This document shows positions 43,650 to 63,130 of a stretch of 64,000 bases of DNA, piece after piece. The DNA is taken from assembly GCA_947627365.1 (NCBI GenBank), contig CANQVT010000001.1, positions 1 through 64,000 on the forward strand, in the 5' to 3' direction. The first letter of the stretch is position 1, and every line of letters begins with the position of its first letter. A model generated the notes under the pieces. The model had not been told where the DNA came from. It worked only from the letters and a program-made list of their open reading frames with translations, and searched no databases. Position numbers and translations under genes: made by a program. This stretch comes from an uncultured Lachnospiraceae bacterium. Its GTDB lineage: Bacteria > Bacillota > Clostridia > Lachnospirales > Lachnospiraceae.

Positions 43650-46517
43650 TCAGACAATGTCGCCCGTGGACGCCTGCAGCTTTGCAGATGGTCCGAAATA
43701 CGAGGGTTTAAGGGTAATTCCTGCCTCACGGATCACCAGGCGCTCCAGCACCAGCCCCGCCTCGCGCGCAGAAACCACGATCTGATTCCGTCCGGTGCGC
43801 AGGGTGATCGGGATCTCGGCTACATGCTCCTGATCAAGCACCGCCTTCGACCATTCCCGGCAGCTGTTCTCGCCCCCACGGTAGCCCTCGCCCGCGATCA
43901 CCGCTGTCTGCGAAGCCTCCTCGTTGACCGACACGCCCAGGCGCAGCATTCCCCCGTAGACCAGAGGATTCGCCGGGGAAGTGTGCAGCGCCAGGATCGC
44001 CTCGCACGACTTCGGGCTTTCAATCTCATAATACAGGCAGGGAGCGTCTGCTTCCCCGGAAAAGGACGCTGTGACAGGGAAGACCTTCATCCCGGAGCCG
44101 AACTTTCCGTAATCTTCAAGCTTCTCAAAAGCGGCCTCCGCGCCTTCGTATCTTCCTGCTTCCCTACGGCTGCAGTTCGCAGCGTCGATCACGCAAAGCC
44201 CGCCTTGAAGTAGGAATGCGCCGTTCGGGTTCCTGACCGCTTTTCTTTTTTCAATCCGGAATAACAGCGGCACATACTCCTGTCCGGAGCTGATACTGCA
44301 GGAGACCTCCAGCTTTTCATCCGGAAATTCCTCCCTGCGCAACCGGACGCTGACTTCATCCGCCAGCTCTGTGCTTCCTTCCGTGGCGGAGAACTCCAGA
44401 TAGGGCGGAACATCGTCGATCTGCCAATGCAGGACGCCCTGCCCGCTGTTCGCGATCCGCAGCGTCACCTCATCCACTCCTTCATAGCAAAGATCCTCGA
44501 CTACAAGCGGCTTCGGGAAATACTGATTGGTATATATCTCACAGTCGTCCGCGCGCGACACGGTGAGACGCGGTTTTTCCGGAAGCGTGACCACATGGCA
44601 TACCGGATAGCGCCAGTCCTGCTCGTTCCAGTTCACGAAACCGATGTGCGCGGCCCGCTCCATGCCACGCCATTTGCCATCCCGAAACGCGGCCATCTGC
44701 TCCCCAAGCTCTTCATCTTTGCGGATGCATTCCTCCAGCTTTTCCCCGTATGTGTTGGCCAGAGCGATCCCCTGCGCGGCGTACAGGTGATTGAAGCCTG
44801 CGTACAGATGCATCTTCAGAAGGTTGGCGATCCCGGCCGCCGGATAATAAATCATGCTGAAATAGGCGTCGGCGCAGGGCGTGCCCGAAAGGCGCTCCCG
44901 CATGCGCTCATTCTCCTGCTCCAGACGATCCGCGCGCTGCAGCATCGTCCGTCCCTCATGATAGTGCGCCGGATGATAAACCCGGTCGTTGAGGGCTTCC
45001 GCACGGCGCAACCCATGCAGGCGCACGGACTCCTCCTGGATCCAGACGATCTCCCTGCAGACTTCCTTCGGCAGATAGGCTCCGAACAGCCGCCGGATCC
45101 ACCCCTGCGTATAGGCCAGCGTCTGCGGATAATGTCCCGTTCCCAGCCGCTCGAAATCATACGCCAGCTCCATGAAGTAGCCCAGCGAATACTCCTGGAA
45201 TTTCACGTCGCCCACATTCACGATCCAGAGCTCGCGCACCCCGTACTCGTACGCCTCCGTCATCTGCTCCCAGATATGCGTAAGCGGCGTGGAATTGACC
45301 CACTCGTAAGAGATCGGCGCGCCGTGATAATCGAGATGATAGTATATCCCGCAGCCGCCCCTGTGCTTCGTCTGCGGCAGCGCGCGCATGTGTCCGAAGT
45401 TGTCGTCGCTGAACAGCAGCGTCACATCCTCCAGCTCCGGAAAGCCCTGAAGTCCCTCCGACTGACCGTCTCCGAAATAGTATTCTTCCACCTCTTTGTA
45501 GATCGCAAAGAGCTGCGGGACAGAGCCTCTTTCCGACTCGATACAGTCCCGGATGATCCTGCGCTGCTGCGTGATGATCTCTTTGAGCTGACGCACGTTC
45601 TCATCGACAGACGATCCCTCCGCCAGCAGCTTGCTGTCGCGCTCTCCGCGCATTCCCACGGTCGGGAAAATGTTCTGATCCTTCACTCTCGTCAGACCAT
45701 CCTCCCAGAAGCGCAGCAGACCTTCCTTGTTTTTCGCGTAGTCCCAGTCCATTCCATATACGGAATCCTCGCCCTTGAACAGGGAAAACTCCTCGCCGGA
45801 GCGCATGCAGGGCTCGTGGTGCGACATCCCAATGTAGATCCCATATTCGGTCGCAAGCTCCATAGACTTAAGTCCGGGTCCGTCCAGTAAAAACGAGGAG
45901 GACCACATTGCAGGCCACAGATAGTTGCCTTTCATGCGCAGGAGGTACTCGAAAACCTTGTCGTACATCTCCGCTGTGAAGCCTCCGTAGTGATCCGTCG
46001 TCCAGTTGCCGAAGCAGGGCCACTCGTCGTTGATGAAAAAGCCGCGGTACTTCACGGACGGCTCCTTCGAGAGCATATTTTGCTCCGCCGTCAATGTGAC
46101 GCTCTCCCGAAACGGCGGCGTCACGTCTCCCCAGAAGCCCCAGGCGGTGACGCCAAGCAGCTCCGAGAGATGGAACATACCGTAGATCGTCCCGAGCTTA
46201 TCGCTGCCCAGGATAACAAGCCCTTCCTCCGCCGCCGGAATCGGACGCTCCGTGAGGATGAAACCATAGGCCTCCCATTTTCCCTCAAGCTCTAAAAGCT
46301 GAGGAATGCGTTCCTGAAGTTCTTTTGCGAACGCCCCGTTCCCTGCGGTGCCGACCAGGATCGCCTGCCTGCACGCCTCGCCGGGATCGCTCAGGATGCA
46401 GTTCGCGCCCGTCGTATCCCGAATATCCTTTGCTACCTTCTCCCAGACCCTGCGGATCCCTGCGTCCGCCTGCGGATCCAGGATCACATGGATCGTCTCT
46501 CCTCCTGAAAATCTCAC
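43650..46517 (-). CDS. GH115 xylan alpha-glucuronidase
   Basis: GH115 enzymes remove (4-O-methyl)glucuronic acid from glucuronoxylan and its oligosaccharides. The 955-residue protein has the family landmarks GSDKLGTIYGMFHLSELLGV, VKYRGFFINDEWPCFGNWT and YLWPAMWSSSF in the N-terminal and TIM-barrel domains and a C-terminal beta-rich region. No signal peptide is present, so it should act on imported oligosaccharides. Start is GTG 46517 in a GTGA overlap with the esterase gene; GTG 46487 is an alternative. It is the last gene of the xylanase operon. Confidence 0.93.
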   Translation of the reverse strand: MRFSGGETIHVILDPQADAGIRRVWEKVAKDIRDTTGANCILSDPGEACRQAILVGTAGNGAFAKELQERIPQLLELEGKWEAYGFILTERPIPAAEEGLVILGSDKLGTIYGMFHLSELLGVTAWGFWGDVTPPFRESVTLTAEQNMLSKEPSVKYRGFFINDEWPCFGNWTTDHYGGFTAEMYDKVFEYLLRMKGNYLWPAMWSSSFLLDGPGLKSMELATEYGIYIGMSHHEPCMRSGEEFSLFKGEDSVYGMDWDYAKNKEGLLRFWEDGLTRVKDQNIFPTVGMRGERDSKLLAEGSSVDENVRQLKEIITQQRRIIRDCIESERGSVPQLFAIYKEVEEYYFGDGQSEGLQGFPELEDVTLLFSDDNFGHMRALPQTKHRGGCGIYYHLDYHGAPISYEWVNSTPLTHIWEQMTEAYEYGVRELWIVNVGDVKFQEYSLGYFMELAYDFERLGTGHYPQTLAYTQGWIRRLFGAYLPKEVCREIVWIQEESVRLHGLRRAEALNDRVYHPAHYHEGRTMLQRADRLEQENERMRERLSGTPCADAYFSMIYYPAAGIANLLKMHLYAGFNHLYAAQGIALANTYGEKLEECIRKDEELGEQMAAFRDGKWRGMERAAHIGFVNWNEQDWRYPVCHVVTLPEKPRLTVSRADDCEIYTNQYFPKPLVVEDLCYEGVDEVTLRIANSGQGVLHWQIDDVPPYLEFSATEGSTELADEVSVRLRREEFPDEKLEVSCSISSGQEYVPLLFRIEKRKAVRNPNGAFLLQGGLCVIDAANCSRREAGRYEGAEAAFEKLEDYGKFGSGMKVFPVTASFSGEADAPCLYYEIESPKSCEAILALHTSPANPLVYGGMLRLGVSVNEEASQTAVIAGEGYRGGENSCREWSKAVLDQEHVAEIPITLRTGRNQIVVSAREAGLVLERLVIREAGITLKPSYFGPSAKLQASTGDIV

Positions 46518-48814
46518 CGCCGCCTACTCCTTTCCGACACTGTATTTTCCTGAAACACCTTATCAGTCTCCTGATCTTCCTTTTCTCTCCCCAGATGGAG
46601 TCGGAACGGCCCGACGCATAACCCGTTCTCCCCGTACAGGAGCAGCGATCCCGGCGCGCGGAACCATGCGTAGCGCACATACCTCGGGCAGGGAACTTTC
46701 TCAGAATGCAGGATCACACAGGTTCCGCCGCTGCACGCAGCTGACGCGGCAGCCCCTTGCTTGTCATTCTCCACGCTGTTCTCTGCGCCGTTCTCCACTC
46801 TGTTCTCTATGCCGTTCTCCACTCTGTTCTTTGCGCCGTTCTCCACGTTGTTCTCTACATCATCCTCCACGCGCACCAAAGCCGGATAGTATACCCCGTC
46901 TTCGCCGGCGAGCTCGAACAGGCGCGGATTGTTCGGTGCGTCCTGCATGGCCGGCCGCAGCCGCAGCTCCACCCGGCCGTCAAAGCGCAGGCGCACGCAG
47001 CCATCCGGCATAGTTTTCCTTCCGCCCGGCGCCAGCTCCCAGCCGCAAACCTTTGGCGCGCTCCACTCTGTCTTTTCTTTATAGATCATCGCCCGAGCAG
47101 CGTACGCGGCACGGGTCGCCACCGTCTTCTTGTCGCGCGGGTGCAGGTCGTTGTCCTCCCCCGCGTCCAGATTCACTGTGACGGCGACATCCTCCAGCCG
47201 TCCCGCCAGAGCCTGCGCTTCGCGGACCTGCGGCCACGCGTCGTCCGGCGCGACGTCCACGCCGCAGTTCGGCAGCTGCATCACGACGAACGGCAGACTC
47301 TCCTGCCTCCAGTGCTCCCTCCAGTCGCGGATCAGCCCCTCCAGAACGGCGTTATATGTCTGCGGGCGGCTGTCGTTGGACTCGCCCTGGTACCAGAGCG
47401 CGCCACGCACCCGATACGGCAGGCAGGGCGCTGTCATCCCGTGAAACAGACCGGTCGGCTTCCAGCTGATAAACGTCTGTCCCGGCGCTTCCCCGCAAAC
47501 CGCGCGCTGCTGATATTCCCACGCTCCCGCAAGCGACACGCGTGTCAACCTGCCTTCGCGCTCCGCAAGAGCCATGCGCACCAGACGGTCTACCGAATCG
47601 ATCCCTGCCGAAGCGTCCGCTCCATCCGCCCAAGTCTCCTGCGCTGAACCAGCCGCGTCATCCGCCCGAGTCTCCTGCGCTGAACCAGCCGCGCCATCTG
47701 CCCGAACTTTCTGCGCTGAGCTCTCATTTTCCCAGACGATCTCCAGCGGCTGTCCCGCCGTGCTGCGCCCCTCGCCGGTCCTGCAGACCAGCCGGATGAG
47801 TATCTCGTTCTCTCCTTCGTGCAGCAGTCCGGCCGGAACCAGGTAGCGCCGCGGCGGATAGCGGTAGCCGGTCTCGCCTATGCGGGTTCCATTGATGTAG
47901 ATCGTATCGCTGTCCACCAACGTCCCGAAGCGCAGCAAGCCTTCCCTTTGCAGGCAGTCGGACGGCGCGGAAAATGTCCGCCGCAGATGAATGCAGCCGC
48001 AGAATTTCTCCAGTCCCCAGTCCCGGACCTCTCCCGGAAGCACTGCCGGACGCCAGGGCGCATCCGCGCTCTCCTTCTCCTGACGGCGGATCTCCCGCTG
48101 CCAGTCTACTTCCGCGCGCATCTCCTGTCCGCCAAGCTTCCGGCAGAACGCTTCGTCTTTGTAGCGATCGGCTTCCTCAAGCGCCTCCGGCCACTCGCGC
48201 AGCCCTTCGCGGCTCATCCACGCCTCCGCGGGCGTTCCGCCAAGACTCAGGTTCATAATGCCGACCGGCACTTTTTTCACTCTGGCAAGCTCTTTTCCGA
48301 AAAAGTATACAAACGCGGAGATCTCAGGAAGTTTTTCCCCCGTGCATGTCCTCCACTCCGCCTGTACATGGTCCTCCCGCGGCCCGCGGAAGTCCCGGCA
48401 TTCCGTCACCTTGTACTCATGCACGTCCGGCGCGCCCCCGTCCCGGAATTCCTCCGGAAAGCGCTCGCACACTCTGCTCATCGGCAGCTCCATGTTGGAC
48501 TGTCCGGAGCAGACGAACACCTCGCCCACGTACACCTCGCGGATCACCGCTTCCTCTCCGCGGGAAGTCTCCACGCGCATGAGATACGGGCCTCCCGCCG
48601 GGGGCGTCTGCAGCCCGGCCTCAAAGCGGCCGCTTGCGTCCGCCTCTGTCTGCGCCCGGCGAGAAACAGTTTCCATTTCTTTTGCACCCGCACCCATGTC
48701 TGTCCCGATCACAATACAAAGCGTTTCCCCCGGATCGCACCAGCCCCATATCCTGCACTGATCGCCCTGCTGCAGCACACATCCATTGCTAAACAATCTG
48801 GGTAATCTCAGCAT
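46514..48814 (-). CDS. SGNH carbohydrate esterase (sialate O-acetylesterase-like)
   Basis: The 765-residue protein matches the sialate O-acetylesterase/CE20-like class: nucleophile block CSGQSNMELP (Ser106), GTPAEAWMS, an inserted beta-sandwich at about 235-375, and GALWYQGESN in the second half. Within a xylan operon it most likely removes acetyl groups from xylo-oligosaccharides. No signal peptide is evident, so action is probably cytoplasmic. Two low-complexity repeat tracts interrupt it (about residues 365-397 and 657-690). ATG 48814 follows GGAGGAG. It overlaps GH115 by 4 bases. Confidence 0.88.
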   Translation of the reverse strand: MLRLPRLFSNGCVLQQGDQCRIWGWCDPGETLCIVIGTDMGAGAKEMETVSRRAQTEADASGRFEAGLQTPPAGGPYLMRVETSRGEEAVIREVYVGEVFVCSGQSNMELPMSRVCERFPEEFRDGGAPDVHEYKVTECRDFRGPREDHVQAEWRTCTGEKLPEISAFVYFFGKELARVKKVPVGIMNLSLGGTPAEAWMSREGLREWPEALEEADRYKDEAFCRKLGGQEMRAEVDWQREIRRQEKESADAPWRPAVLPGEVRDWGLEKFCGCIHLRRTFSAPSDCLQREGLLRFGTLVDSDTIYINGTRIGETGYRYPPRRYLVPAGLLHEGENEILIRLVCRTGEGRSTAGQPLEIVWENESSAQKVRADGAAGSAQETRADDAAGSAQETWADGADASAGIDSVDRLVRMALAEREGRLTRVSLAGAWEYQQRAVCGEAPGQTFISWKPTGLFHGMTAPCLPYRVRGALWYQGESNDSRPQTYNAVLEGLIRDWREHWRQESLPFVVMQLPNCGVDVAPDDAWPQVREAQALAGRLEDVAVTVNLDAGEDNDLHPRDKKTVATRAAYAARAMIYKEKTEWSAPKVCGWELAPGGRKTMPDGCVRLRFDGRVELRLRPAMQDAPNNPRLFELAGEDGVYYPALVRVEDDVENNVENGAKNRVENGIENRVENGAENSVENDKQGAAASAACSGGTCVILHSEKVPCPRYVRYAWFRAPGSLLLYGENGLCVGPFRLHLGREKEDQETDKVFQENTVSERSRRR
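46775..46860. repeat. 24-bp tandem repeat in the esterase gene
   Basis: About three and a half copies of a 24-base unit beginning TGTTCTCT encode VENG/ENRV-type octapeptides. The unit is a multiple of three, so the frame is safe against expansion. Confidence 0.88.
47625..47720. repeat. 36-bp tandem repeat in the esterase gene
   Basis: Two nearly identical 36-base units (47625-47660 and 47661-47696) and a partial third encode a 12-residue GSAQETRADDAA-like repeat, a likely flexible linker after the inserted domain. Confidence 0.88.
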
Positions 48815-48914
48815 CTTTCCGCTCCTCCGTTTCCGTATTCTGTCCCGCACGGCCTCCGACGATCCGCGCACCCCGCGGTTGTCCTTTTTTCTCAGCCGTC
48901 ATTTCTCCATGTTT

Positions 48915-49883
48915 TCATTTCTTCGCGCCGTCGTTTCTCCACTCGCTTTTCCGCGGCGTGCTGACACTGATGATCTTGCTCTGCTGCAGGTTCAGCGTGA
49001 GCATCAGTCTACCCTCGTCCCTGCGCTCCGGCTTCATCAGATAATGAGCATACTTATCGATCAGCCCGAAAAGGTTGGCGGTACGCCCCTCGATCTTGAA
49101 GTTGTAAAAGCCCATCGGCACATATTTCTCGTAGACGTCGTCCGGCGAGATGAAGGTCGGGTAATCCTGGATCGTGTAGAAGGTATTCTTATCCCCGTAC
49201 GCGCATTGCCAACCCTTCATCGGAAGCTGCTTTCCCGGCGGCAGCTTCCGGTTTTTGAGCACGATCTCCTGCTGCTTCGCAATCGCCTTGTAATGGTCGC
49301 CGCGTCTCGGACAGTTCGGCACACAGCAGGCGTTCACCAGCACCTCGCAGCGCGCCTTATCCTTGATCTTCTCCAGAAGCTCAAACTGATTGTTCAGGTT
49401 GTAGTCGAGCACCACCAGATTGTAATCCTTCTCAAGCTCCTCGTTCAGGGCCTCAATCGTCCGGATCTCCTTGCAGGTGGAGCTGTTGATCTTGTAACCG
49501 GGATAGGTTTTCCGTATGTACTCCTCGAGCACAGACGAGACGACCAGTACCTCGTTCATGCCGTTGTCCGCCGTCTTCATGCAGAAGTTGCAGTATTCGT
49601 CCTTCAGATCACTCTCATGCAGCAGCGGGTTCGTGTAGGTATAACGGATCGGGATGCCCTGCGCGTTAATCGTGCGGATCACGTTCTGAATAAAGCCCGC
49701 ATCGCACTGGTCGCCGTTGCTGAACCGCCCGCCGTTCCAGCGCGAGGTGGGAAACTCGCCGAAAAACGACCCGATCTCCACGTCCGGGCGGAAGAACTCA
49801 GGATATTTTTTCATCATGCTGCACAGCATCATATTCAGCGGATAATTGAACCGCAGGCCGGGGAGATGGAATTTTATTTTCAT
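48915..49883 (-). CDS. Uncharacterized U32-like protein A in xylan operon
   Basis: I do not recognise a characterised family. The 322-residue protein and its paralog at 52292-53203 share HLPG at the start, SFFGEFPTSRWNGGR, DNGMNEVLV, LVVLDYNLN and VPNCPRR, and the FYNFKIEGR segment near residue 260, which recalls the LKIEGR motif of peptidase U32 proteins. Four cysteines align between the paralogs (98, 187, 191, 227) and could bind a 4Fe-4S cluster. No signal or membrane segment. ATG 49883 follows GGGAGG, one base after the xylanase stop. Function unknown. Confidence 0.75.
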   Translation of the reverse strand: MKIKFHLPGLRFNYPLNMMLCSMMKKYPEFFRPDVEIGSFFGEFPTSRWNGGRFSNGDQCDAGFIQNVIRTINAQGIPIRYTYTNPLLHESDLKDEYCNFCMKTADNGMNEVLVVSSVLEEYIRKTYPGYKINSSTCKEIRTIEALNEELEKDYNLVVLDYNLNNQFELLEKIKDKARCEVLVNACCVPNCPRRGDHYKAIAKQQEIVLKNRKLPPGKQLPMKGWQCAYGDKNTFYTIQDYPTFISPDDVYEKYVPMGFYNFKIEGRTANLFGLIDKYAHYLMKPERRDEGRLMLTLNLQQSKIISVSTPRKSEWRNDGAKK

Positions 49884-49884
49884 A

Positions 49885-51201
49885 TTATTTATTACCTCCC
49901 GCAAACGCATAGAACGCAGGCTTCTTCTCATAGTGCTCGTCGAAAAGAAGCGGACACTCGGGAAGCCCTGTGGTGTTGCCGCCGCCGACGTCGGAACGGC
50001 TCTGCAGCCAGGACAGATGATCCGCCGTCCCCCAGAAGGTGAGCGACGTGATGTTGACGCCCTCTTCCTTATCAGCCGACTTGAGCGCCCAGTAGATCGC
50101 GCCGTAGCGCTTTGCCTGCTCCTCAAACTCCTTCTCCTTCGACTCCGGACTGCCGTCGTAGTCCTCGCTCGCCTTCATGTCGAGTTCCGTCATCTGCACG
50201 TTGCCCACGACCTGCGCGTACATGCGGATCGCCATATCGATCTCCGAGTAGTTCGGCGAATCCATATTGTAATGTCCCTGCATACCCATCGCGTCGATGC
50301 GCGCGCCCTCGGTCGCCTTGACCGCGCGCAGAAGCTCCAGGATGCCCGCCATCTTCTGCCCGGAGCACTCATTGTAATCATTGTAATAGAGCTCCAGATC
50401 GGCCGGGGCGTACTTGTTCGCGTAGACAAAGGCGTTCAGAATGAACTCATTGCTCTGGTAGACATGCCACCAGCTCGAATTGTTCCCGTGCGTGTCGTTG
50501 GAGAGCGGTTCGTTCGGATTCTCATTGTCGGAACGATAAGTGCCCGTGGAATCGCTCACCGCCTCGTTCACCACATCCCAGCCGTAGAACAGGTCCTTAT
50601 ACTCGCTGTCCTCACCCGTAAAATGTGTCAGCACCGTGCGGATGTACCACTCCAGGCGCTTGTTCATCGTCTCCCTGTCCACGTAGGGCTTCTGCTTGTC
50701 ATAGTCCTCGTGGAAGAACCACTCCGGCGTCTGGGAGTGCCATACGAGCACATGCCCGCGGACCTTCAGCGCGTCGTCCGGATTTTTCTTATTCCACTGC
50801 AGGATCTTGTCCAGCATGTTCTCCGCCTTGTAAAAATTGATCTTCGGCACAGTGATCGTCTCGCCGTTCAGCTCGGCCTCCTCCGTGCCCGGACAGACGG
50901 CGTTGCTGTAATTGAAAAGCGCGTCGGGCTTCAGCTCGTTGCCAAGCGTCACGGCGTTGAAATGCGTCGTGATGATCTCCCACACCCTCCGGTTGTTGAT
51001 CTCCTGCCCCGTGACCGCCGCGCCGACATAACAGCCAAGCTCCTTAGATACGGCATCCTTCAAACGCACGTCCTCGACCTCCTCTTCCGTCTGCTGCTCC
51101 TTTGCAGCGCACACAGCACCACCCACAGCACCACCCGATACCAACACGGCCGCCGCCAGAAGCCATGCAGCCGCGCACAGATTTTTCTTCTTTCTGATCA
51201 T
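49885..51201 (-). CDS. GH10 endo-1,4-beta-xylanase
   Basis: The 438-residue secreted enzyme hydrolyses the xylan backbone. A signal peptide covers about residues 1-33. The GH10 barrel has VRGHVLVWHSQTPEWF, acid/base Glu213 in WDVVNEA and nucleophile Glu339 in TELD. A short insert follows at PESKEKEFEEQAKRY. There is no carbohydrate-binding module. ATG 51201 follows AGAGGAA. It is the lead gene of the operon xylanase - U32-like A - esterase - GH115 and is divergent from the AraC regulator. Confidence 0.96.
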   Translation of the reverse strand: MIRKKKNLCAAAWLLAAAVLVSGGAVGGAVCAAKEQQTEEEVEDVRLKDAVSKELGCYVGAAVTGQEINNRRVWEIITTHFNAVTLGNELKPDALFNYSNAVCPGTEEAELNGETITVPKINFYKAENMLDKILQWNKKNPDDALKVRGHVLVWHSQTPEWFFHEDYDKQKPYVDRETMNKRLEWYIRTVLTHFTGEDSEYKDLFYGWDVVNEAVSDSTGTYRSDNENPNEPLSNDTHGNNSSWWHVYQSNEFILNAFVYANKYAPADLELYYNDYNECSGQKMAGILELLRAVKATEGARIDAMGMQGHYNMDSPNYSEIDMAIRMYAQVVGNVQMTELDMKASEDYDGSPESKEKEFEEQAKRYGAIYWALKSADKEEGVNITSLTFWGTADHLSWLQSRSDVGGGNTTGLPECPLLFDEHYEKKPAFYAFAGGNK

Positions 51202-51307
51202 AGTCAATTCCTCTTGTGCTCCATTAAAATTTTACATTTTCCCAAATTCGTGATATAGTGATTAAAATTGTTGTAAGTGTCTGCCAAAGAACCGGAGGCG
51301 TATTCAT
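51202..51307. promoter_or_regulatory. Divergent xylanase/araC promoter region
   Basis: This 106-bp gap must hold the control sites for both directions. For the plus strand TTTACA and TATAGT are 17 bases apart (51231-51259). The AT-rich DNA between them and the xylanase start should carry the opposite promoter and AraC operator half-sites, but no clear direct repeat could be fixed by eye. Confidence 0.65.
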
Positions 51308-52246
51308 GTGAAAAACGAAAACATCGATTTTTATACAGCGAACAATGATTTCTCAGGTGAGCGCGTGATCAAAGAGAACCGTGAGATCGTACAGCATCAG
51401 GGAAGCGGCGCGATCCGCATCTGGTGCAACGATCTGGACGCTCCCTTTGACACACACTGGCACACGGATCTGGAGATCATCGTGCCCGCAGAAAACTGGT
51501 ACGACGTGGTCATCGGAGACGAAGCCTTCCACCTTCTGCCCGGCGATATCATGATCATCCCCTCAGGCGCGCTCCACTCTCTCACGGCCCCTGAGACAGG
51601 CACACGCTTTATCTATCTGTTCGACATCTCCTCCATCGCGTCCATTCACGGCTTTGCGGAGCTTTCTGCGCTACTCTCTTCTCCGCTGCACATCACGAAG
51701 GCGTCATACCCGCATATTTACGGCGACGCCGACCGGATACTCAGACAGATACGCACCGAATATTTCAGCAAAAGCCCGCTCTATGAGTTCTCCGTGTTCT
51801 CCCTGCTGATGAGCCTGTTCGTCATGCTCGGCAAGAACCATCTGAACAGTATGAACGCATTCTCCGGCACGCGTACCGGCAAGCAGCAGGAATATGTCAG
51901 CAAATTCAACAGCGTCATGGAGTACATTGACGAGCATTTCACGGAGGACATCCGCCTCGACGACGCGGCTGCCGCCACAGGCTTCAGCAAATATCATTTC
52001 TCAAGACTCTTCAAGCAGTACACAGGCTATACCTTCTGCAGCTATCTGCTCCGCCTGCGGATCAGGGCGGCGGAACAGCTTCTGGAGCAGCCCGGCCTCT
52101 CCATCGCGGAGATCGCCATGCGCTCCGGCTTCCCCAGCATTCCCACCTTCAACCGCGTGTTCCGCCAGCAGAAAAACTGCTCGCCGAGCGAATACCGCGA
52201 GAAGAACAATAAGCTCAATCCGCTCAGAGGCAAGAATAATCAGTGA
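51308..52246 (+). CDS. AraC-family regulator with cupin sensor
   Basis: The 312-residue regulator has an N-terminal cupin with THWHTDLEIIVP and LLPGDIMIIPSGALHSL, and a C-terminal AraC double HTH: AAATGFSKYHFSRLFKQYTGYTFCSYL and IAEIAMRSGFPSIPTFNRVFRQQKNCSPSEYR. It is divergent from the xylanase operon and is probably its sugar-responsive activator; it may also control the GH5/ABC part. The start is GTG 51308-51310 after GGAGG; the ATG two bases earlier is out of frame. Confidence 0.92.
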   Translation: MKNENIDFYTANNDFSGERVIKENREIVQHQGSGAIRIWCNDLDAPFDTHWHTDLEIIVPAENWYDVVIGDEAFHLLPGDIMIIPSGALHSLTAPETGTRFIYLFDISSIASIHGFAELSALLSSPLHITKASYPHIYGDADRILRQIRTEYFSKSPLYEFSVFSLLMSLFVMLGKNHLNSMNAFSGTRTGKQQEYVSKFNSVMEYIDEHFTEDIRLDDAAAATGFSKYHFSRLFKQYTGYTFCSYLLRLRIRAAEQLLEQPGLSIAEIAMRSGFPSIPTFNRVFRQQKNCSPSEYREKNNKLNPLRGKNNQ

Positions 52247-52291
52247 TCCCGCAAAAACGACAACGCACACGTAAGCAGAGTCCCTTCCTGC

Positions 52292-53203
52292 TTATCGCAG
52301 CCCCTTCTTTCGCAGCGCCGCAGTCTGAACCTGCTGCAACAGCCGGCTGATCTTCCCCTTGATGTACTCTCTGTCCTCATCCTTCACCAGAAAATACACA
52401 TACGATTCCAACAGATACTCGACCGGCATCCCTCGCCCGGCGATCTTGAAATTTACGAATCCCCTGTCGATGTAAGAGCCGATCTCCTCGTTGGAGATAA
52501 AGGCCGGCCGCGACTTGCACTCCGAGAATTTCCGGCTGCGCGAGCGGTTCGGGCAGGGGAAATTGGTCTCGGTGTCGAACTCCAGCTGAAGCTGCGACTG
52601 CTGGCGGTAATGCTCCGAGCGCTTCGGGCAGTTCGGATAGCATACCTCGTTTACCAGAAGCTCGATGCGTCCCGCGCAGGGCTCAAGCTGTGAGAGAACC
52701 TCCTCATTGTGGTTCAGGTCATAGTCGAGCACGACCAGACGGTAATCGCCCTTCAGCTCCTCCTTCAGCGCGGCCGGATCGATGATCCTTTTGGTCGTGG
52801 AGGAGATGATCGGGTAACGGGGATATTCCCGCCGGATGTAATCCTCGAGCGCCCGGGAATTCACGAGCACCTGATTCATGCCGTTGTCCCCGAGACGCAT
52901 GATGAGGTTGCAGTAGGTGTCGTACACATGCTTCTCCTCCAGGAGCGTGTTCGTCCAGGTGAAGCGCAGCGGCACGCCCCTGCTGTTGTAGAGCTTCAGC
53001 ACAGCCTCGATCTCCTGCTTTCCCGCGAAGCCGAGCACCGTGCGCCCGCCGTTCCAGATCGCGCCCGGGAACGTCCCGTACACAGAGCCGATCCGGTAGC
53101 CGTCGCGAAATTTATCGGGATAATCCCTCATCAGGTTGAGTATGGCCTGGTTCAGCAGCCGGAAGCTGCAGAAGCCGGGCAAATGCCAGTAAACTTCTCT
53201 CAT
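52292..53203 (-). CDS. Uncharacterized U32-like protein B
   Basis: This 303-residue paralog of the gene at 48915-49883 shares RFTWTNTLLEE, DTYCNL, DNGMNQVLV, LVVLDYDLNHN, VNEVCYPNCPKRSEHY and FVNFKIAGR. Cysteines 98, 188, 192 and 217 or 229 correspond to those of protein A. There is no signal peptide. ATG follows AGGAGAA. It lies 33 bases downstream of the GH5 gene in the same direction, so each paralog is paired with one glycanase gene. Function unknown. Confidence 0.75.
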   Translation of the reverse strand: MREVYWHLPGFCSFRLLNQAILNLMRDYPDKFRDGYRIGSVYGTFPGAIWNGGRTVLGFAGKQEIEAVLKLYNSRGVPLRFTWTNTLLEEKHVYDTYCNLIMRLGDNGMNQVLVNSRALEDYIRREYPRYPIISSTTKRIIDPAALKEELKGDYRLVVLDYDLNHNEEVLSQLEPCAGRIELLVNEVCYPNCPKRSEHYRQQSQLQLEFDTETNFPCPNRSRSRKFSECKSRPAFISNEEIGSYIDRGFVNFKIAGRGMPVEYLLESYVYFLVKDEDREYIKGKISRLLQQVQTAALRKKGLR

Positions 53204-53236: not shown

Positions 53237-54598
53237 CTACTGCGGAGGCTGATCCGAAGCCTTCTGCGAGTTCTCGATCAGCGCGTCCGCGATCTCCTGC
53301 GAATACCAGCTGCAGTTTTTCCGGTCAAAGATCCCGAACTTCTCGCCGCTGCCGCTGTAGTTGCCGTTATCCCACCAGATACATTTGATCCCGGAGCCGT
53401 TCATGACCTCCATGTAGTCGGCAAGCCATTTCAGGACCTGCTCCGTATTCTCCACCTCGTTGCCGTCCGCGTCCTTGTAAGTCTTGTGAACCGCGCCGAA
53501 CTCCGTGACGATAACCGGGATATCCTTGCTCAGAAAATGCCGCTTGAGCAGATCGACGTTTGAGATGATGTCCTTCTTAAGTGTGCCGTTCCACTCGTTG
53601 ACGCTCTGTCCCTCCGGCTCATAGGTGAAAAAGTATGGCGTATAGAGATGCGCCGACACCATCACATACGGATCCTCAGGCACCTCGAGCTGCTGGACGC
53701 TGCTGTAGGTCACGGAATTCCCGTAAGGGCAGATGATCAGGCTTCTCGTCTCGTTGTTTCCGCCCGCGGCGCGCACCGTATCCACAAAAGCCTTGTTCAG
53801 CTCATTCACGATCGCGCGCTCCTCGTCGGTGCCGCCCGACCATTCCTGCGCGCTCCCCTTGGTCCTCGGCTCGTTCATCCCTTCAAACAGCAGATGGTAA
53901 TCATAGTCCGCGAAGCGCTCGGAGATCTGCGCCCAGATCGCCGTGAGCTCCGCCTCGATCTCTTCTGCGTTCTCCGGCTGCGGGATCAGCCAGAAATCCG
54001 GCTCATGGTGCGTATCGATAATGACGAACATCCCTTCGTCGTACGCGTAATCCACAACCTCCGCCACACGGTCGAGCCATTCGCTGTCGATCGTGTAATC
54101 CGGCGCTTCCCCGACGCTCTGCGCCCAGGTGACCGGAATGCGCAGCGTGTTGAAGCCCTGCGCGCGCACGGCGTCGATCATCTCCTTCGTGGTCTTCGGA
54201 TTGCCCCAGTAGGTCTCGTTGCCCATCACAGACGACGCGCCCCATGCGTCGAACGTGTTTCCCAGATTCCAGCCGACGTTCATCTGCGCGAGTACCTCCG
54301 CCGCTGTCGGCACAGCCGCGTCTTCCCCGGAGTCCGTCAGTTCCTCGTCTTCTTCTACGGAAACCACCGATATATCCGCATCCTCCGGGAAGACCTCCAC
54401 TACCTCGTCCCCCGTCCCGGAGGACGGCAGCACCTCGATCACATCCCCGGAGGCCCCGTCCTCCGTCTCGGAAACCGCAACTACCTCGACCACGTCCCCG
54501 GAGGCCGCCGCGTTCTCATCCGCCTGACAAAATCCCGGGACAGCCGCCGACGCCAGCACCGCAACAACCGATAAAGCCAATAGTCTTCTTTTTTTCAT
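53237..54598 (-). CDS. GH5 family endoglycanase (cellulase-like)
   Basis: The 453-residue secreted enzyme has a signal peptide (about 1-26), an acidic linker at 30-95 containing three S/T-GD-V-EV repeats, and a GH5 barrel with NVGWNLGNTFDAWG, acid/base Glu243 in GMNEPR and nucleophile Glu366 in VTEFGAV. Endo-beta-1,4-glucanase is most likely; xyloglucanase or mannanase cannot be excluded. ATG 54598 follows AAGGAG. It comes after the sugar-binding protein gene and a strong terminator-like hairpin. Confidence 0.92.
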   Translation of the reverse strand: MKKRRLLALSVVAVLASAAVPGFCQADENAAASGDVVEVVAVSETEDGASGDVIEVLPSSGTGDEVVEVFPEDADISVVSVEEDEELTDSGEDAAVPTAAEVLAQMNVGWNLGNTFDAWGASSVMGNETYWGNPKTTKEMIDAVRAQGFNTLRIPVTWAQSVGEAPDYTIDSEWLDRVAEVVDYAYDEGMFVIIDTHHEPDFWLIPQPENAEEIEAELTAIWAQISERFADYDYHLLFEGMNEPRTKGSAQEWSGGTDEERAIVNELNKAFVDTVRAAGGNNETRSLIICPYGNSVTYSSVQQLEVPEDPYVMVSAHLYTPYFFTYEPEGQSVNEWNGTLKKDIISNVDLLKRHFLSKDIPVIVTEFGAVHKTYKDADGNEVENTEQVLKWLADYMEVMNGSGIKCIWWDNGNYSGSGEKFGIFDRKNCSWYSQEIADALIENSQKASDQPPQ

Positions 54599-54687
54599 AA
54601 TACACTTCTCCTTCGAACCATGTTTTCGGCGGCTCCGCGGCGAACGCACGGCTCCCGCCCGAACAATTTTATCTGCATCCTATTGCA

Positions 54688-54791: not shown

Positions 54792-56243
54792 TTACTCAGC
54801 CGCCGCCTCAGTTTCCGCAGCAGTCGTCTCTGCCTCGGTCTCTACCGGCATCACATCCGAATCGCCGTTCGCGTAATCCAGATAACCCTGCCACAGGTTT
54901 CTCACAGCCTCAGCCGCCGCTGCAGGAGGATTGTCCGCGTTCACGTTCCACAGGAACTGCTCGCCGTAGGACAGACCCGGGATCATGTCATGGTAGGTGG
55001 TGAAGCCGTTGCTGCAGAGGATCTCGATCGTCTCGTCCACGGACTCCATGTCACGGAAGGTGTCATAGTAGCCGCTGAGTCTGTCGTTGTAATCCTCGTA
55101 GCCCGGCACCAGATCGGTGTAAGCGTCAAGCGCGAACGCGATCTTCCATGCCTTCTCCTCGTCGTAGCACGCCGGGATCGCATAGATGTTGTCGGTGTAA
55201 ACGTTTGTGTAGTAATCCGCGCTCGGTCCGATCGGGAAGCAGACGAAACCGAAGTCGTCTTCCATATCCTTCAGCTCGTTCGCCGCAAGGTAAGCCTGGC
55301 CAACCATGAACGCCGCGTCGCCAGCCGGGAAGGAGGTCTTCCACCAATCCCACTCAGCGCCTTCCGGCTTGTAGTTGTACTTCGCCATCATGTCAAGCGC
55401 CCAGTTCAGAGCCGTCAGAGTCTCCTCGGACTCGGTCTTGTTCACATACTTGCCGTCTTCCATGCCGATGAACTCACCATTGTTGGACCACACGGCCTCA
55501 TTCTTCATCTCGGACTCATCCGATACCATCGCCCAGCGGTCGATCACGCCGTCGTTGTCCGTATCCGCATTGATCTGCTCGCAGACCTCCTCAAACTTAT
55601 CCCAGGTCCACTCGCCGTCTCTCTGCCACTGGTAGATGTCGTCCGGGTTGATGCCGGCCTCCTCGACCAGTCTCTTGTTGAAATACATGCCTCCGCGCGG
55701 CTCAGGGATCGCCGGGCTGCAGCCGTAGATCGCGTCGCCCTTCGTGCAGAGCTCATGCACGCCGTTTCTCGTCCACTTCTCCTCCGAGAAGTCCAGGCAG
55801 TCCAGAGTAGACAGGTCATACATCAGGCCGCTCGCCATAGCGGAAACGAACTCCGGGCCGGATCTCAGGATCCATACGTAGTTCTCATCATCGCCGCCCG
55901 ACGTCACGTAGTTGAGGTAATCCTCCGGCGTGGAACCCCAGTCGCTGATCGCGATCTGCTTGATGCTGAAGTTGTAGGTCTCCTGCACCCAGTCGATGTA
56001 GTCCAGACGCGCCTCGCCGTAGTCGTCCGTCGCCTCCGGCTCCTCGCCTGTGCTCCACCAGTCGCGGATCACGATCTCCATGCCGCCGAGATCATAGACG
56101 TTGCCGTCCTCGTCGGTGAGCGCCACATAGCCGTCATCACCGGCGCCTTCGTCTGCCATCGAGACAGTGCCGCCCATCATGCTTGCCGCCACCGCTGCGG
56201 CCATGGAAGCCGTCAATACTCTGTTTAAGGTTTTTCTTTTCAT
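54792..56243 (-). CDS. Sugar ABC transporter substrate-binding protein
   Basis: The 483-residue family 1 binding protein has GMEIVIRDWW at the start of the fold, PEPRGGMYFNKRLVEEAGI and FPAGDAAFMVGQ. The signal peptide (about 1-30) ends VSMADEG and has no cysteine, so it is not a lipoprotein by sequence. A Glu/Ala/Thr-rich tail ends the protein. ATG follows AAAGGAGGATG. With permeases at 56295 and 57295 it forms one importer; no ATPase is in the window, so a shared MsmK-type ATPase is likely. Oligosaccharides from xylan or glucan are the probable ligand. Confidence 0.9.
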   Translation of the reverse strand: MKRKTLNRVLTASMAAAVAASMMGGTVSMADEGAGDDGYVALTDEDGNVYDLGGMEIVIRDWWSTGEEPEATDDYGEARLDYIDWVQETYNFSIKQIAISDWGSTPEDYLNYVTSGGDDENYVWILRSGPEFVSAMASGLMYDLSTLDCLDFSEEKWTRNGVHELCTKGDAIYGCSPAIPEPRGGMYFNKRLVEEAGINPDDIYQWQRDGEWTWDKFEEVCEQINADTDNDGVIDRWAMVSDESEMKNEAVWSNNGEFIGMEDGKYVNKTESEETLTALNWALDMMAKYNYKPEGAEWDWWKTSFPAGDAAFMVGQAYLAANELKDMEDDFGFVCFPIGPSADYYTNVYTDNIYAIPACYDEEKAWKIAFALDAYTDLVPGYEDYNDRLSGYYDTFRDMESVDETIEILCSNGFTTYHDMIPGLSYGEQFLWNVNADNPPAAAAEAVRNLWQGYLDYANGDSDVMPVETEAETTAAETEAAAE

Positions 56244-56294: not shown

Positions 56295-57302
56295 TCACAT
56301 TTTAATTCCTGAACTGCTGATGCTCTCCACGAAGCCCTTCTGCGCGAAGAGGTACAGGATCAGCAGCGGTATGATCACCATCAGCGTGCCGGTCGATACG
56401 ATACAGTTCGTGTAGCCCACCGAGGCGCCGCCCGGTATCTTTAAGGTGTTCACGACCCAGGCGTCCATCCGGTCCGCCACGACCGCGAGCTCCTTGGCGA
56501 GCAGGCTGATGTTGCCCAGGAACATCTTGGAATAGAAATTGTCCGTCCACTGCCACACGAAAGAGAACAGGAAGCAGGACGTCAGGATCGGCTTCGCGTC
56601 CGGAAGCATGATGCGCACGAAGGTCTTCAGCGTGCCGCAGCCGTCCACGTAGGCCGCCTCCTCAAGCTCCTTCGGGATGTTCCGGAAGAACTGCCGTATC
56701 ATGTAGATATACAGGCCGCTCTTCAAGCCCATGCAGCCCGCGCTCATCAGATAGTACGGAAGCACCGAACCGCGAAGGTTGACGGCCTCTCCCGTCAGCG
56801 CCTTGAAGATCCCGAAGATATCAAAGTAACGGAAATGCAGGTGCAGCGACGTGGAGATCGTCTGCGGCGGGATCACGATCACAAGGATGACGCAGGCAAA
56901 CCAGAAGTTCTTGAACGGGAAATTGAACCGCGCGAAGCCGTAGCCCACCAGCGTGCTCACCGCGATCTGCAGCAGCGCGATCGTCAGCGAAACAAGGATC
57001 GTATTGACAAGCGACTTCCCGTAGCTCATAAACTGCGCCGTCAGCTGATAGTTCGCCGTCGTAAAGTGCTCCGGGATGGAGATGACCATCGGATTGTACA
57101 GATCGCGCTCCTCCATGAAGCTCACAGAGATCTTCATCAGGATCGGCTGCAGGATCAGAAAGCACATCCCGAACAGAAGCACCGCGCGGGCGATCTTAAA
57201 CGCAATATCGGATATCGTCCTCTTTAAAAGGTAGCCCCCGGACAGCTTATTTCGTTCCCAGAAGCCTTTCTTCGCCGGCTTCGCTGCCTTGCCTTTAGTC
57301 AT
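56295..57302 (-). CDS. Carbohydrate ABC permease, LplC type
   Basis: The 335-residue membrane protein has six segments and the MalG-family coupling loop ELEEAAYVDGCGTLKTFVRIMLPDAKP. A basic N-tail (TKGKAAKPAKKGFWERNK) precedes the first helix. It overlaps the partner permease gene by 8 bases. Confidence 0.94.
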   Translation of the reverse strand: MTKGKAAKPAKKGFWERNKLSGGYLLKRTISDIAFKIARAVLLFGMCFLILQPILMKISVSFMEERDLYNPMVISIPEHFTTANYQLTAQFMSYGKSLVNTILVSLTIALLQIAVSTLVGYGFARFNFPFKNFWFACVILVIVIPPQTISTSLHLHFRYFDIFGIFKALTGEAVNLRGSVLPYYLMSAGCMGLKSGLYIYMIRQFFRNIPKELEEAAYVDGCGTLKTFVRIMLPDAKPILTSCFLFSFVWQWTDNFYSKMFLGNISLLAKELAVVADRMDAWVVNTLKIPGGASVGYTNCIVSTGTLMVIIPLLILYLFAQKGFVESISSSGIKM

Positions 57303-58200
57303 AATAGTATACCCCCTTCGAGATGATCAGCGAGGTGATGCCTATGATGGCGAGTATCACTACAAAGTAGACCCAGGACATCGCCGAGGCAAAGCCGTAA
57401 TTGATGTAGGCGATCATCTGCTCGCTGATCTTCTCGATCAGCTCATTGTCAGACCGCATACAGAAATCCACGATCGTGTAGACCCAGTTCACCAGGAACA
57501 GCGGGCTCACCATCGGGAAGGTGATCTTCCAGAAGCTCTCCCACGCCGTACAGCCCTCGATGGACGCCGCCTCGTACATGCTGTCGGAGATCGTCTGCAG
57601 CCCGGAGAGGAAGATGATGATCTGGATGCCCGAAGCGATCGCGACGTCGTAGATGCCGTCCACGATATCAAACACGACCTCGAAGGCCCGGACGCCCACG
57701 CCCGAGGTCATCAGGATCGTCTGCAGGGTATCGCTCACGCTCGACACATTGGTCGTCTCCTCCACCATGCTCTGCACGCTCGCGAGCAGCGCGTTGTCCG
57801 TCTCCACGCCGAGGATCACGCCCGACGAGAGGATCACGGGAAGAAAGAAGATCGCGCGCACCAGCGCCCTGCCCTTGAATTTCTGGTTGAGGATCAGCGC
57901 CACGAAGAAGCTGAACACCATGATCGCAACGGCGTTGATGCACATCCTCGAGATCTCCTCCACCAGCAGCCGGTTGAACTCGGTGTCGACCGTGAAGGCC
58001 TGTATGTAATTGTCCAGACCGATATAGGAATTCGTGATACCCTGCGGGCTCACCTGCACATTGCAGAAGCTCATGTAGAGCGACTGGCACAGTGGAACCA
58101 CCATAAAGGCCAGAAAGCCTATGATAAACGGCGAGATAAACAGGTATCCCGATATCGCCTTTCTCCTCTCAAGCCCTGCGTATTTTTTGCGCTTCTTCAT
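57295..58200 (-). CDS. Carbohydrate ABC permease, UgpA/MalF type
   Basis: The 301-residue permease has KAISGYLFISPFIIGFLAF at the first helix and the coupling loop MYEAASIEGCTAWESFWKITFPMVSP. A periplasm-facing insert at about 130-190 is longer than usual. ATG 58200 follows AAGGAT; a TTG two codons upstream is less likely. It is the heterodimer partner of the permease at 56295. Confidence 0.94.
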   Translation of the reverse strand: MKKRKKYAGLERRKAISGYLFISPFIIGFLAFMVVPLCQSLYMSFCNVQVSPQGITNSYIGLDNYIQAFTVDTEFNRLLVEEISRMCINAVAIMVFSFFVALILNQKFKGRALVRAIFFLPVILSSGVILGVETDNALLASVQSMVEETTNVSSVSDTLQTILMTSGVGVRAFEVVFDIVDGIYDVAIASGIQIIIFLSGLQTISDSMYEAASIEGCTAWESFWKITFPMVSPLFLVNWVYTIVDFCMRSDNELIEKISEQMIAYINYGFASAMSWVYFVVILAIIGITSLIISKGVYYYD

Positions 58201-58267
58201 AGTCAAGATCCTTTCTCTTCGAACATCTGAATGCCGCTGTCCACTCTGTGGCCCGCGGCCGGAACCG

Positions 58268-60829
58268 TCATCTCACGACCAGATAGTCCCTCGCCGGAAG
58301 CGTCTCTCCGTCCGGCGTCTTTGCCTCGTCGTAGCCATAGTTCACGTACACCTTCGTCCCGTCCTCGTACTCCGTGCAGGAGAGCGTCTCCGAAAGCTTC
58401 TCGTGTCCGGTCATCTTCTGGCTGAAGGTGTGGCCGAGCTCGCTGTCGTAGCGCTTGTAGATCTCCATCAGACGGTCGTGCCAGGTATCGTACTCCGCTC
58501 CGAAATATTCCGTATAGAGCGTGTTCTGCAGGGTAAACGCGGACTCATCCATCAGGGTGAACGCAAGCCCCGCGCCGTACTCGGCTGACAGAAGCAGCTC
58601 CTCCTCTTCATTCTGCGTCAGGTTCAGCGGCTCGCCGGTGTAATCCACATAGCCGTGCAGCGCCATCTGGTAGACGGGAACGTAGGCGTCGAGGATCGTG
58701 TAGTCCGAGCCGCGCAGGTTCATGTTCGTCACGATGTCGCTGTGCGCCACGGCGTAATTGTTGCCCATGTTGATCATGATCTTTTTGCCGCCGTCCCGGA
58801 TCTCCGCCATCTGCTCTACCTGAGCGTTGAGCTCACTCTGCCTGGACACGGGAGTCTTTTTATTGAAATCGGAACTCAGGTCGACGCCGATGTCCTCGAA
58901 GGAGACGTTCGCGCCATATTTGTCCGCCGCGCTCACAAGCTTGTCGACCATCTTCGGGATCAGCGAAGCCTTGAGCAGATAATGCGGCTCCTGTCCTTCC
59001 CTGTCCGCGTATGTAACCGTGCTGTACGGATGGATCTCCGCCACCTTCTTGCTCGCGAGCCGCGCCGCCTGCGTGAAGGTGAGGAAACCGTCGAGAATGC
59101 CGCTGTCGTACGCGTAATTGGTGATTCCGTTCAGGTACAGATCCACGCCGTTCTCCTTCGCGAAGGAGGCGAGCTCCTTCAGATCCTTCTTTCCGCCCAG
59201 ATCCGATATGACCTTCACCTTGTTCAGGATCTTCTGCTGCACGCCGCCGTTGAACCAGCCGGACAGCTTCACGCTCATATTCCCGACGCCTTCCTCCAGA
59301 AGATCGCCGATGATGTCTTTCGCCTCGTCGAAGGTGGTGAGCGGCAGCGGCCTCGATACCGGGACGCCCGCGACCTGTCTCACCTTATCCACGGCGCCGA
59401 CGATCTCGACCACCGTCGGGGTCTGCGCGTCGTCCTTCTCCGCGAAGAGCTCTCCGAACTCGCTCTGCAGATAGCTCCGGTAGGTCGCGGCCATATCCGC
59501 GTAGCTGTCGGATTCGAGGAAATAATAGCTCAGCACGAGCGGCTCCTGCGGGAGCGCGTCCTCGTACATGTAGATCTTGCTTTCATAGCGGTCGCCCATC
59601 TCGTACACCTCTCTGTGGAGCATGGTATACTGGGCCGACACCGAGTTGTAGCTGGTGGTCTTTCCGCTGATGTCCGCGTTGATGCCCGCGTAGGGCGCGC
59701 CGTCCTCAAGCACACAGAGAAAGGAGGAACCCTCGTGCGCAATTCCAAACGCGTTGAAGTAGGTGTTCGTCTCATGCACGACCGCGTCTCTGTACTGCGC
59801 GTAATCCCAGCCGTACAGATTTGCGTAGTAGCTGTTCTGCGCCACCTTTCCGTTGTTGAAATTGATGAGCGCGCCGCCGCCCTCGGGCACCAGCATATAG
59901 CCCTCGTCTTCCGTGCTTCCGGCACCGAAGTAGGGAAGAACGGTCAGATAGTAGATCGGGTAGCTCTCGCGGTACTCGATCTCCTCCATCGGAACCTCTA
60001 CCGTCAGCTTATTGCCATCCAGACGGTAGACGACGTTTACGTTGAATACGGGAAGCTCGGAGGCTTCGCCCTCCTCCGATTCACCCATGTCCGCGAGGTA
60101 ATCCTCGTAGGTATAACCCGCCTTTTCAAACTCCTCGGCGATCATGCGCTTTACGTTGTCGCTCGCCTTATCCCTCAGGACGTACAGGGGTTCGTCCGCA
60201 AGCCCCGGATACAACTCAAGCAGCTCTTCCTTGTTGTCCCTCCTGCCGAGATTGTTGATGTCGTACTTCTTATAATAGCCCCGTACCTTTTTGGCCTTAC
60301 TCGAGTCCATGTTGGCGGTCAGCTCATCCATCCGCTCCACGGACAGGGTCGTCGGGATCACAAAGGTCTCCTCGAATTTGCCGATCGAGTAGTATACTTT
60401 TATATAGTCCTCACCCTGCTCGATCTCGTAGGTGCCCGCGTCGATGCTGTAGTCAAAATTGTTGAACAGGGTATCCACGCCGTCCGTCGTGCTGTAGGTG
60501 AGCAGCAGCGTAGATTTCAGCTGAGATTTGTCCAGCTTGAGCGCCAGCGGATCCTTGTCTGCCTCCGGCGGATTGGAGTACCACACCTTGTCATTCTTCT
60601 TATCCGTCACAGTGAACTGCGTGGTGTCCGGATCCATCTCAAAGAGAAGGTCGTCGTTCTCCAGAACGGCCGTCTTCACATCGCCCGAATAGGTCTTTGT
60701 CTCGATCACCTGCGGCTCTTCCTCCGCCGGCTTGTAAAACTTCATAACCAGTGCGACTGCAAGGATGAGCGCCAGAACGATGACCGGCCCCGCCATTTTT
60801 TTGATTATCTTTCCTATCGAAGACTTCAT
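58268..60829 (-). CDS. Membrane-anchored DUF5696 protein
   Basis: The 853-residue protein has one N-terminal membrane helix (about 13-30) and a large outside part. The pattern (GAGSTEDEGYMLVPEGGGALINFNNGK, then a barrel-like half with VKLSGWFNGGVQQKILNKV and GANVSFEDIGVDLSSDFNKK) fits DUF5696, a family that resembles glycoside hydrolases but lacks a proven activity. ATG follows GGAGAGACAGGAT. It sits upstream of the sugar permeases and downstream of YIP1 and NHL genes, so a role at the surface in sugar capture or cleavage is inferred. Confidence 0.8.
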   Translation of the reverse strand: MKSSIGKIIKKMAGPVIVLALILAVALVMKFYKPAEEEPQVIETKTYSGDVKTAVLENDDLLFEMDPDTTQFTVTDKKNDKVWYSNPPEADKDPLALKLDKSQLKSTLLLTYSTTDGVDTLFNNFDYSIDAGTYEIEQGEDYIKVYYSIGKFEETFVIPTTLSVERMDELTANMDSSKAKKVRGYYKKYDINNLGRRDNKEELLELYPGLADEPLYVLRDKASDNVKRMIAEEFEKAGYTYEDYLADMGESEEGEASELPVFNVNVVYRLDGNKLTVEVPMEEIEYRESYPIYYLTVLPYFGAGSTEDEGYMLVPEGGGALINFNNGKVAQNSYYANLYGWDYAQYRDAVVHETNTYFNAFGIAHEGSSFLCVLEDGAPYAGINADISGKTTSYNSVSAQYTMLHREVYEMGDRYESKIYMYEDALPQEPLVLSYYFLESDSYADMAATYRSYLQSEFGELFAEKDDAQTPTVVEIVGAVDKVRQVAGVPVSRPLPLTTFDEAKDIIGDLLEEGVGNMSVKLSGWFNGGVQQKILNKVKVISDLGGKKDLKELASFAKENGVDLYLNGITNYAYDSGILDGFLTFTQAARLASKKVAEIHPYSTVTYADREGQEPHYLLKASLIPKMVDKLVSAADKYGANVSFEDIGVDLSSDFNKKTPVSRQSELNAQVEQMAEIRDGGKKIMINMGNNYAVAHSDIVTNMNLRGSDYTILDAYVPVYQMALHGYVDYTGEPLNLTQNEEEELLLSAEYGAGLAFTLMDESAFTLQNTLYTEYFGAEYDTWHDRLMEIYKRYDSELGHTFSQKMTGHEKLSETLSCTEYEDGTKVYVNYGYDEAKTPDGETLPARDYLVVR

Positions 60830-63114: not shown

Positions 63115-63130
63115 ATGACACCTCGCCAAA

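Follow-up and report, generated by a model that had tools for sequence, protein, structure and literature searches.

A paralogous pair of divergent U32-like proteins linked to xylan utilization loci in Lachnospiraceae

The window considered here, a 64,000-nucleotide stretch from an uncultured Lachnospiraceae bacterium (GenBank assembly GCA_947627365.1, contig CANQVT010000001.1, positions 1 to 64,000), encodes two related proteins, designated A and B, that make up a branch of their own within the U32 superfamily. Both are real genes, they are linked to xylan utilization, and the A-B tandem beside a sugar ATP-binding cassette (ABC) importer and xylan enzymes is a recurring unit. The two open reading frames (ORFs; 323 codons for A and 304 for B, stop included) are present on the minus strand where a preliminary description of this DNA had placed them, each with a ribosome-binding-like stretch on its 5′ side (GGGAGGT and TTAGGAGAA, read by eye). 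Their relatedness, also claimed there, amounts to 121 identities over 308 positions (39%, E 2e-70), and each is the sole match of the other within its own genome, the assembly of which is ~85% complete. Neither protein has a signal peptide by eye, and both are cytoplasmic by sequence. The closest named record to A is from an uncultured Lachnospiraceae bacterium (98% identity); the isolate is named Lapin, the French word for rabbit, a possible pointer to its host.

The stretch around A and B reads as a xylan locus (Table 1). The gaps between each gene and a glycanase gene are as first described, with 1 base between GH10 and A and 33 bases between GH5 and B, and both glycanases are confirmed by Pfam. 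An importer operon encoding a solute-binding protein (SBP), permeases, and DUF5696, Yip1, and NHL-repeat proteins lies upstream of the GH5 gene. In the window A and B are not adjacent, as the GH10 and AraC genes lie between them. The DUF5696, Yip1, and NHL proteins (58268-63129) travel together with the importer operon.

Table 1. Genes A and B and surrounding features of the window
Feature	Coordinates	Strand	Basis and remarks
Gene A	48915..49883	minus	Divergent U32-like TIM-barrel protein, 322 aa; Cys 98, 187, 191, 227; E180; FKIEGR
Gene B	52292..53203	minus	Paralog of A, 303 aa; Cys 98, 188, 192, 217
GH10 xylanase	49885..51207	minus	Pfam PF00331, E 2.7e-69; signal peptide by eye
AraC-type regulator, divergent	51308..52246	plus	Pfam HTH_18; between GH10 and B
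GH5 glycanase	53237..54649	minus	Pfam PF00150, E 1.8e-65; signal peptide by eye
ABC importer SBP	54792..56243	minus	Pfam and conserved neighbourhood
ABC importer permease	56295..57302	minus	Clusters with the Pfam-confirmed permease at 63131; conserved in operon
ABC importer permease	57295..58206	minus	Assigned by position and operon conservation
DUF5696 protein, importer operon	58268..60829	minus	Pfam PF18952, E 1.7e-195
Yip1-domain membrane protein, importer operon	60914..61570	minus	Pfam
NHL-repeat protein, importer operon	61567..63129	minus	Pfam
BPD_transp_1 permease, operon head	63131..63913	minus	Pfam; start may lie beyond the window edge
SASA-type carbohydrate esterase, downstream of A	46514..48871	minus	Pfam PF03629
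GH115 alpha-glucuronidase, downstream of A	43650..46517	minus	Pfam PF15979, E 6.6e-116

This setting is shared by many relatives. Across 80 loci that hold the best relatives of A among the matches listed, a set in which near kin are over-represented and near-identical genomes are included, A is directly followed by B in 34, with a gap of at most 27 bases in 28 of these. Both genes are present but apart in 8 more, where glycan-enzyme, regulator, or transporter genes separate them, and all 42 loci with a separate B gene carry importer or xylan-enzyme genes. B is absent as a separate gene from the remaining 38 loci; 12 of these are in a xylan or importer setting and 26 elsewhere, and they include one (L094:9923-11956) in which a single 677-residue ORF comprises A and then B inside an importer operon. 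Homologs of the importer SBP occur in 41 of the 80 loci, and in 27 instances one is the gene immediately before A or B; GH43 of the first type follows in frequency (21), then GH10 (16), GH5 (9), and GH115 (4). The inventory resembles that of clostridial xylan ABC-importer loci in its SBP, permeases, DUF5696 protein, AraC regulator, GH10, GH43, GH115, and esterases. The preliminary description had expected A and B to tend to lie beside glycanase genes and had paired each with its own glycanase. A tendency to lie beside glycan genes is seen in the loci, whereas one glycanase per paralog is not supported: because the tandem and the importer recur while GH10 and GH5 are few, the GH10-A and GH5-B pairs represent a local arrangement. 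The order GH5-B-AraC-GH10-A is found, among the mapped loci, only in the window and three congeners (L207-L209; L061 and L062 duplicate two of these).

The neighbourhood was also sampled in other ways, with some enzyme labels in these maps being weak (25-37% identity). A control drawn from sibling branches (27 loci of group C and one of group D) has such a setting in 1 of 28 loci, by virtue of a 35% GH43-like match. Loci anchored on B contain xylan or importer genes in 8 of 9 cases, one via a 28% GH10 match, as do 13 of the 20 A loci of the family-genome samples, three of which depend on one 28-35% match. Away from xylan genes, A is found with GdpP-L9-DnaB genes, with a GTPase and a tetratricopeptide repeat (TPR) protein, or, in L140, with NadA and a HydE-cluster radical S-adenosylmethionine (SAM) gene.

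Two further arrangements are seen among these loci. In L136, L137, L139, and L140, of Ruminococcus/Oscillospiraceae, genes of the A type stand in tandem immediately after NadA-type and HydE-type genes, identified in L137 by Pfam (NadA) and TIGR03956 (HydE, E 1.4e-169) and in the other three by clustering. Cluster c11 (19 of the 80 loci; L032:11512-19533) places an FtsX-type permease, two proteins with weak HlyD/lipoyl matches, and ATPases after A-B in many xylan loci, possibly as an export system of the same regulon.

The link to xylan extends to whole genomes. A (at least 50% identity) is present in 7 of 200 genomes of the family sample, all of which encode GH10 (vs 29 of the 193 others), GH115 (vs 32 of 193), and both together (vs 12 of 193); these counts ignore kinship between genomes and include the window's own genome. 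Carriers of group C show no such excess (GH10 in 5 and GH115 in 6 of 36), and the tie of A to GH67 is weak (3 of 7 vs 15 of 193). For three of these seven genomes, G073, G089, and G115, A lies outside a recognisable xylan locus, with GH10 and GH115 present in the genome; G115 has a 35% GH5-like match near one of its three A copies. Loci and genome sample together bear out, for xylan, the tie to polysaccharide use that had been proposed at first.

The likeness to U32 proteins, initially drawn from a motif, is backed by sequence profile, fold, and motifs. The fold result rests on a single-chain AlphaFold model of A, which is a confident triosephosphate isomerase (TIM) barrel. Its top solved match, first in both structure comparisons, is the U32 protein Mk0906 of Methanopyrus kandleri (PDB 5d88), the U32 domain of which has 9% identity to A and which is called an uncharacterised member in available excerpts of a gut-microbe review (PMC11574389). 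Aldolases, an epimerase, and GH84 enzymes are weaker matches; the best match being U32, the comparison does not lead to an unrelated known family. A PDB sequence search with A alone or with a 31-row profile gave no U32 chain among the matches listed, whereas profile-profile and fold comparison did find U32. The UbiU and UbiV models NF047963 and NF047965 are not among the matches of A or B, under filters that remove most matches above E 0.1. The same genome has two other clear U32 genes, one TrhP-like in the window (21559-22815; NCBIfam TrhP E 3.8e-116, below the equivalog cut-off) and one with a long, RlhA-type frame.

A tree of 93 of the 183 rows, 15 of them B rows, has a 100/99 branch that separates A, B, and their sibling groups C and D from TrhP, UbiU, RlhA, and the more distant relatives; by the tool's own warnings, the long U32 and distant-relative branches may be placed wrongly. 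B is a single group (100/99), and A does not form one clade. Matches at E ≤ 0.001 occur in 55 of 200 sampled genomes of the GTDB family and in 11 of 398 of the phylum sample. With 36 of these 55 carrier genomes, group C is more common than any other branch, and it behaves as an orphan gene, as a check of its neighbourhoods found no shared neighbours. A search of 397 family genomes with B identified nine with a B-type gene (at least 55% identity), all of which have A, eight of them on one contig.

Conservation of the cysteines is nearly complete among A and B proteins. In 134 family rows, less two (both from L097) removed for unknown residues, C98, C187, and C191 (A numbering) are kept in all 90 A rows and all 42 B rows, the fourth cysteine of A, C227, in 86 of 90, and the fourth of B, 29 residues past C188, in 39 of 42; label C in this tally also covers L044, a D sequence, and L190, an A sequence. 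The preliminary description had aligned four cysteines and anticipated their presence in homologs. Retention in homologs is borne out, as are the alignments of C98, C187/188, and C191/192, whereas C227 of A pairs with C217 of B (FPCPNR) rather than with C229, an extra cysteine common among B proteins. The FKI-GR motif named there is found in both proteins. The spacing in A, C98-x88-C187-x3-C191-x35-C227, does not match the U32-oxidase motif CX6CX15CX3C. Conserved E180 and C187 align at E162 and C170 of TrhP, yet lie one residue closer together than in TrhP; E162 is described as essential in excerpts of PMC6599085.

Among characterized systems, the UbiU-UbiV pair, the anaerobic ubiquinone hydroxylases of E. 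coli, offers close parallels: two side-by-side U32 paralogs (adjacent in the 34 A-B tandems and fused in L094), four conserved cysteines in each, a conserved glutamate in the U32 motif, and an anaerobic setting. UbiU and UbiV form a heterodimer with one 4Fe-4S cluster each, ligated by C169, C176, C193, and C232 in UbiU and by C39, C180, C193, and C197 in UbiV, according to excerpts of PMC6747719. UbiV has one ligand in its N-terminal half, as would the A/B set, which is a third arrangement beside those of UbiU and UbiV. A and B differ from this pair in their cysteine spacing, and no quinone genes are among their conserved neighbours. With TrhP and RlhA, which carry out prephenate-dependent RNA hydroxylation, A and B share the TIM-barrel superfamily, a KIEGR-type C-terminal motif, and, by alignment, candidate equivalents of E162 and C170. 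They differ in length (322 and 303 residues vs 453 and 653), in having neither the C-terminal domain nor CX6CX15CX3C, and in coexisting with the U32 genes of the genome rather than replacing them. The U32 oxidases are a young class, and their characterized roles are ubiquinone and RNA modification, with the oxygen chemistry and the role of the cluster still open, as far as excerpts of the 2024 review state (PMC11574389). In the open-licence literature, no published report of a U32-like pair in xylan loci, or of U32 proteins with gut or polysaccharide, is evident, and no paper on DUF5696 with xylan or on 4-O-methylglucuronate demethylation points to an A/B-like system.

Profile searches also reach longer proteins (355-429 residues; profile E 8e-15 to 1e-23) outside the A/B/C/D clade. 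Four of these, in three genomes, are encoded in a cassette that also specifies two radical SAM proteins, one of them of the SPASM type, and a Tyr/Asn/Trp-rich protein; the best NCBIfam matches of the SPASM protein are peptide and sulfatase maturases, all below cut-offs, and the cassette has the look of a peptide- or protein-modification system not described before. Cassette loci are L172, L173, L180, and L186-L189, with U32-like proteins of 395-400 residues, and genome G425 has the cassette twice. Other distant relatives comprise (i) two tandem U32-like proteins in a nonribosomal peptide synthetase (NRPS)-type cluster, adjoining a condensation-domain protein by Pfam (L181:9190-11414), (ii) U32-like proteins with NRPS-like or 3-deoxy-D-arabino-heptulosonate 7-phosphate (DAHP)-synthase-like genes by eye (L183, L184, L185; the first two NRPS-type), and (iii) one with UbiA prenyltransferase, polyprenyl synthase, and radical SAM genes (L182), possibly an anaerobic prenylated-aromatic pathway. 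Column 98 holds no cysteine in any of the 10 distant relatives, two of which have one five residues on, and 8 of 10 have an extra quartet of cysteines at the C terminus. The genes around these relatives are suggestive of tailoring enzymes, consistent with the O2-independent hydroxylation of the superfamily.

On balance the most economical interpretation, and a somewhat probable one, is that A and B are a UbiU/UbiV-like iron-sulfur (Fe-S) pair performing an O2-independent oxidation that serves xylan use. Each protein, a cytoplasmic U32-superfamily TIM barrel as predicted, would probably bind one [4Fe-4S] cluster on Cys98, Cys187, Cys191, and the fourth cysteine in the 217-227 loop, and the two would probably be partnered as a UbiU-UbiV-like module. 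Short A-B gaps, the L094 fusion, the lack of any B-type gene without A in the nine genomes, and the correlated divergence of A and B (r 0.74-0.75 over 40 loci) fit an A-B complex, the natural fusion being suggestive of a heterodimer. The module would be produced when the xylan importer operon is turned on, probably transferring a hydroxyl group, with prephenate as a possible donor, to something that xylan uptake supplies or requires. Candidate substrates are the non-sugar decorations of xylan, namely the 4-O-methyl group of glucuronate and ferulate.

Several points weigh against such an Fe-S pair in xylan use. The Pfam PF01136 scores of A and B, 14.1 and 16.0 bits, are below the curated cut-off of 22.4 bits, and hhalign with UbiV alone gave no match (0.3%). 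The cysteine spacing departs from CX6CX15CX3C and from both UbiU and UbiV, and zinc binding is possible. The L094 fusion is one case from one metagenome assembly, possibly a sequencing slip at a stop codon, and the correlation of A or B with the SBP (0.69 for both) is hardly below that of A with B, so that the latter reflects co-inheritance rather than contact. The figure of 42 of 42 loci is partly circular, as sampling was A-anchored, and its B-anchored counterpart is the 8 of 9 given above. Four of the 12 xylan-type loci without a separate B gene (L110, L136, L137, L139) depend on a single 27-34% identity match. Genomes G144 and G134 carry a relative of the importer SBP (55% and 42%, respectively) and neither A nor B. 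In 26 of the 80 loci, the surroundings of A yielded no xylan or importer gene, so the chemistry need not be xylan-specific. A separate notion, that the ABC importer requires the A-B pair, was rejected in view of G144 and G134, where the importer is present and A and B are missing.

The same 26 loci are what could be expected if A were a general U32-like protein hitchhiking in gut fibre degraders, unlinked to xylan chemistry. This is very improbable, as A and B remain in xylan loci despite the rearrangements that separate them in 8 of 42, the corresponding setting is lacking in the sibling branches (1 of 28 loci), and the group C genomes show no GH10 excess (5 of 36). Maturation of proteins made in the cytoplasm, such as the SBP or the secreted glycanases, before their export is unlikely, even though it accommodates the 27 cases in which A or B directly follows the SBP gene, the distant relatives of the SPASM cassette, and those in NRPS-type clusters (L181 by Pfam, L183 and L184 by eye). 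These relatives are remote (E 8e-15 to 1e-23), outside the A/B/C/D clade, and devoid of the column 98 cysteine, and the relative with UbiA and polyprenyl synthase genes points to small molecules instead. Moreover, the GH families beside A and B vary by locus, which leaves no constant protein substrate, the SBP perhaps excepted.

A metal-site sensor or a zinc-binding, non-redox TIM barrel of xylan metabolism, such as a sugar-phosphate lyase or epimerase, would suit the strong xylan link, the capacity of four cysteines to bind zinc, and the aldolases, epimerase, and GH84 enzymes among the weaker fold matches. The U32 protein is nonetheless the top match in both structure comparisons, and the C-terminal cysteine quartet of 8 of the 10 distant relatives would seem to fit Fe-S better, which makes this alternative rather improbable. 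Decidedly improbable is a role for A and B as additional RNA hydroxylases of the TrhP/RlhA type: the genome already has its two clear U32 proteins, the TrhP-like one and the long RlhA-kind frame, and an importer/glycanase operon is an odd place for a tRNA enzyme. In its favour, TrhP is the best NCBIfam match for three distant relatives in NRPS-type clusters, albeit far below the cut-off (E 9e-4 to 0.014), and the best-studied U32 proteins hydroxylate RNA, by the excerpts available of PMC6599085.

If A and B are indeed an Fe-S oxidase pair, they might be the first O2-independent example in polysaccharide breakdown, for instance through cytoplasmic oxidative O-demethylation of GH115-freed 4-O-methylglucuronate by methyl hydroxylation or through oxidation of esterase-freed hydroxycinnamates, although this more specific proposal is a long shot. 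GH115 in all seven A genomes fits the methylglucuronate variant, but any user of glucuronoxylan would be expected to have it. Monooxygenase demethylation of methylated sugars is known from aerobes, and O-demethylation of methylglucuronate by A and B, if true, would be its anaerobic counterpart. More broadly, with a branch linked to the use of xylan by anaerobes, U32 chemistry would enter fibre digestion, and the distant kin in NRPS, ribosomally synthesized and post-translationally modified peptide (RiPP)-like, and prenyl gene clusters point to a wider branch made up of anaerobic tailoring enzymes. The pair, its cysteine set, and the operon make the question of the substrate directly testable.

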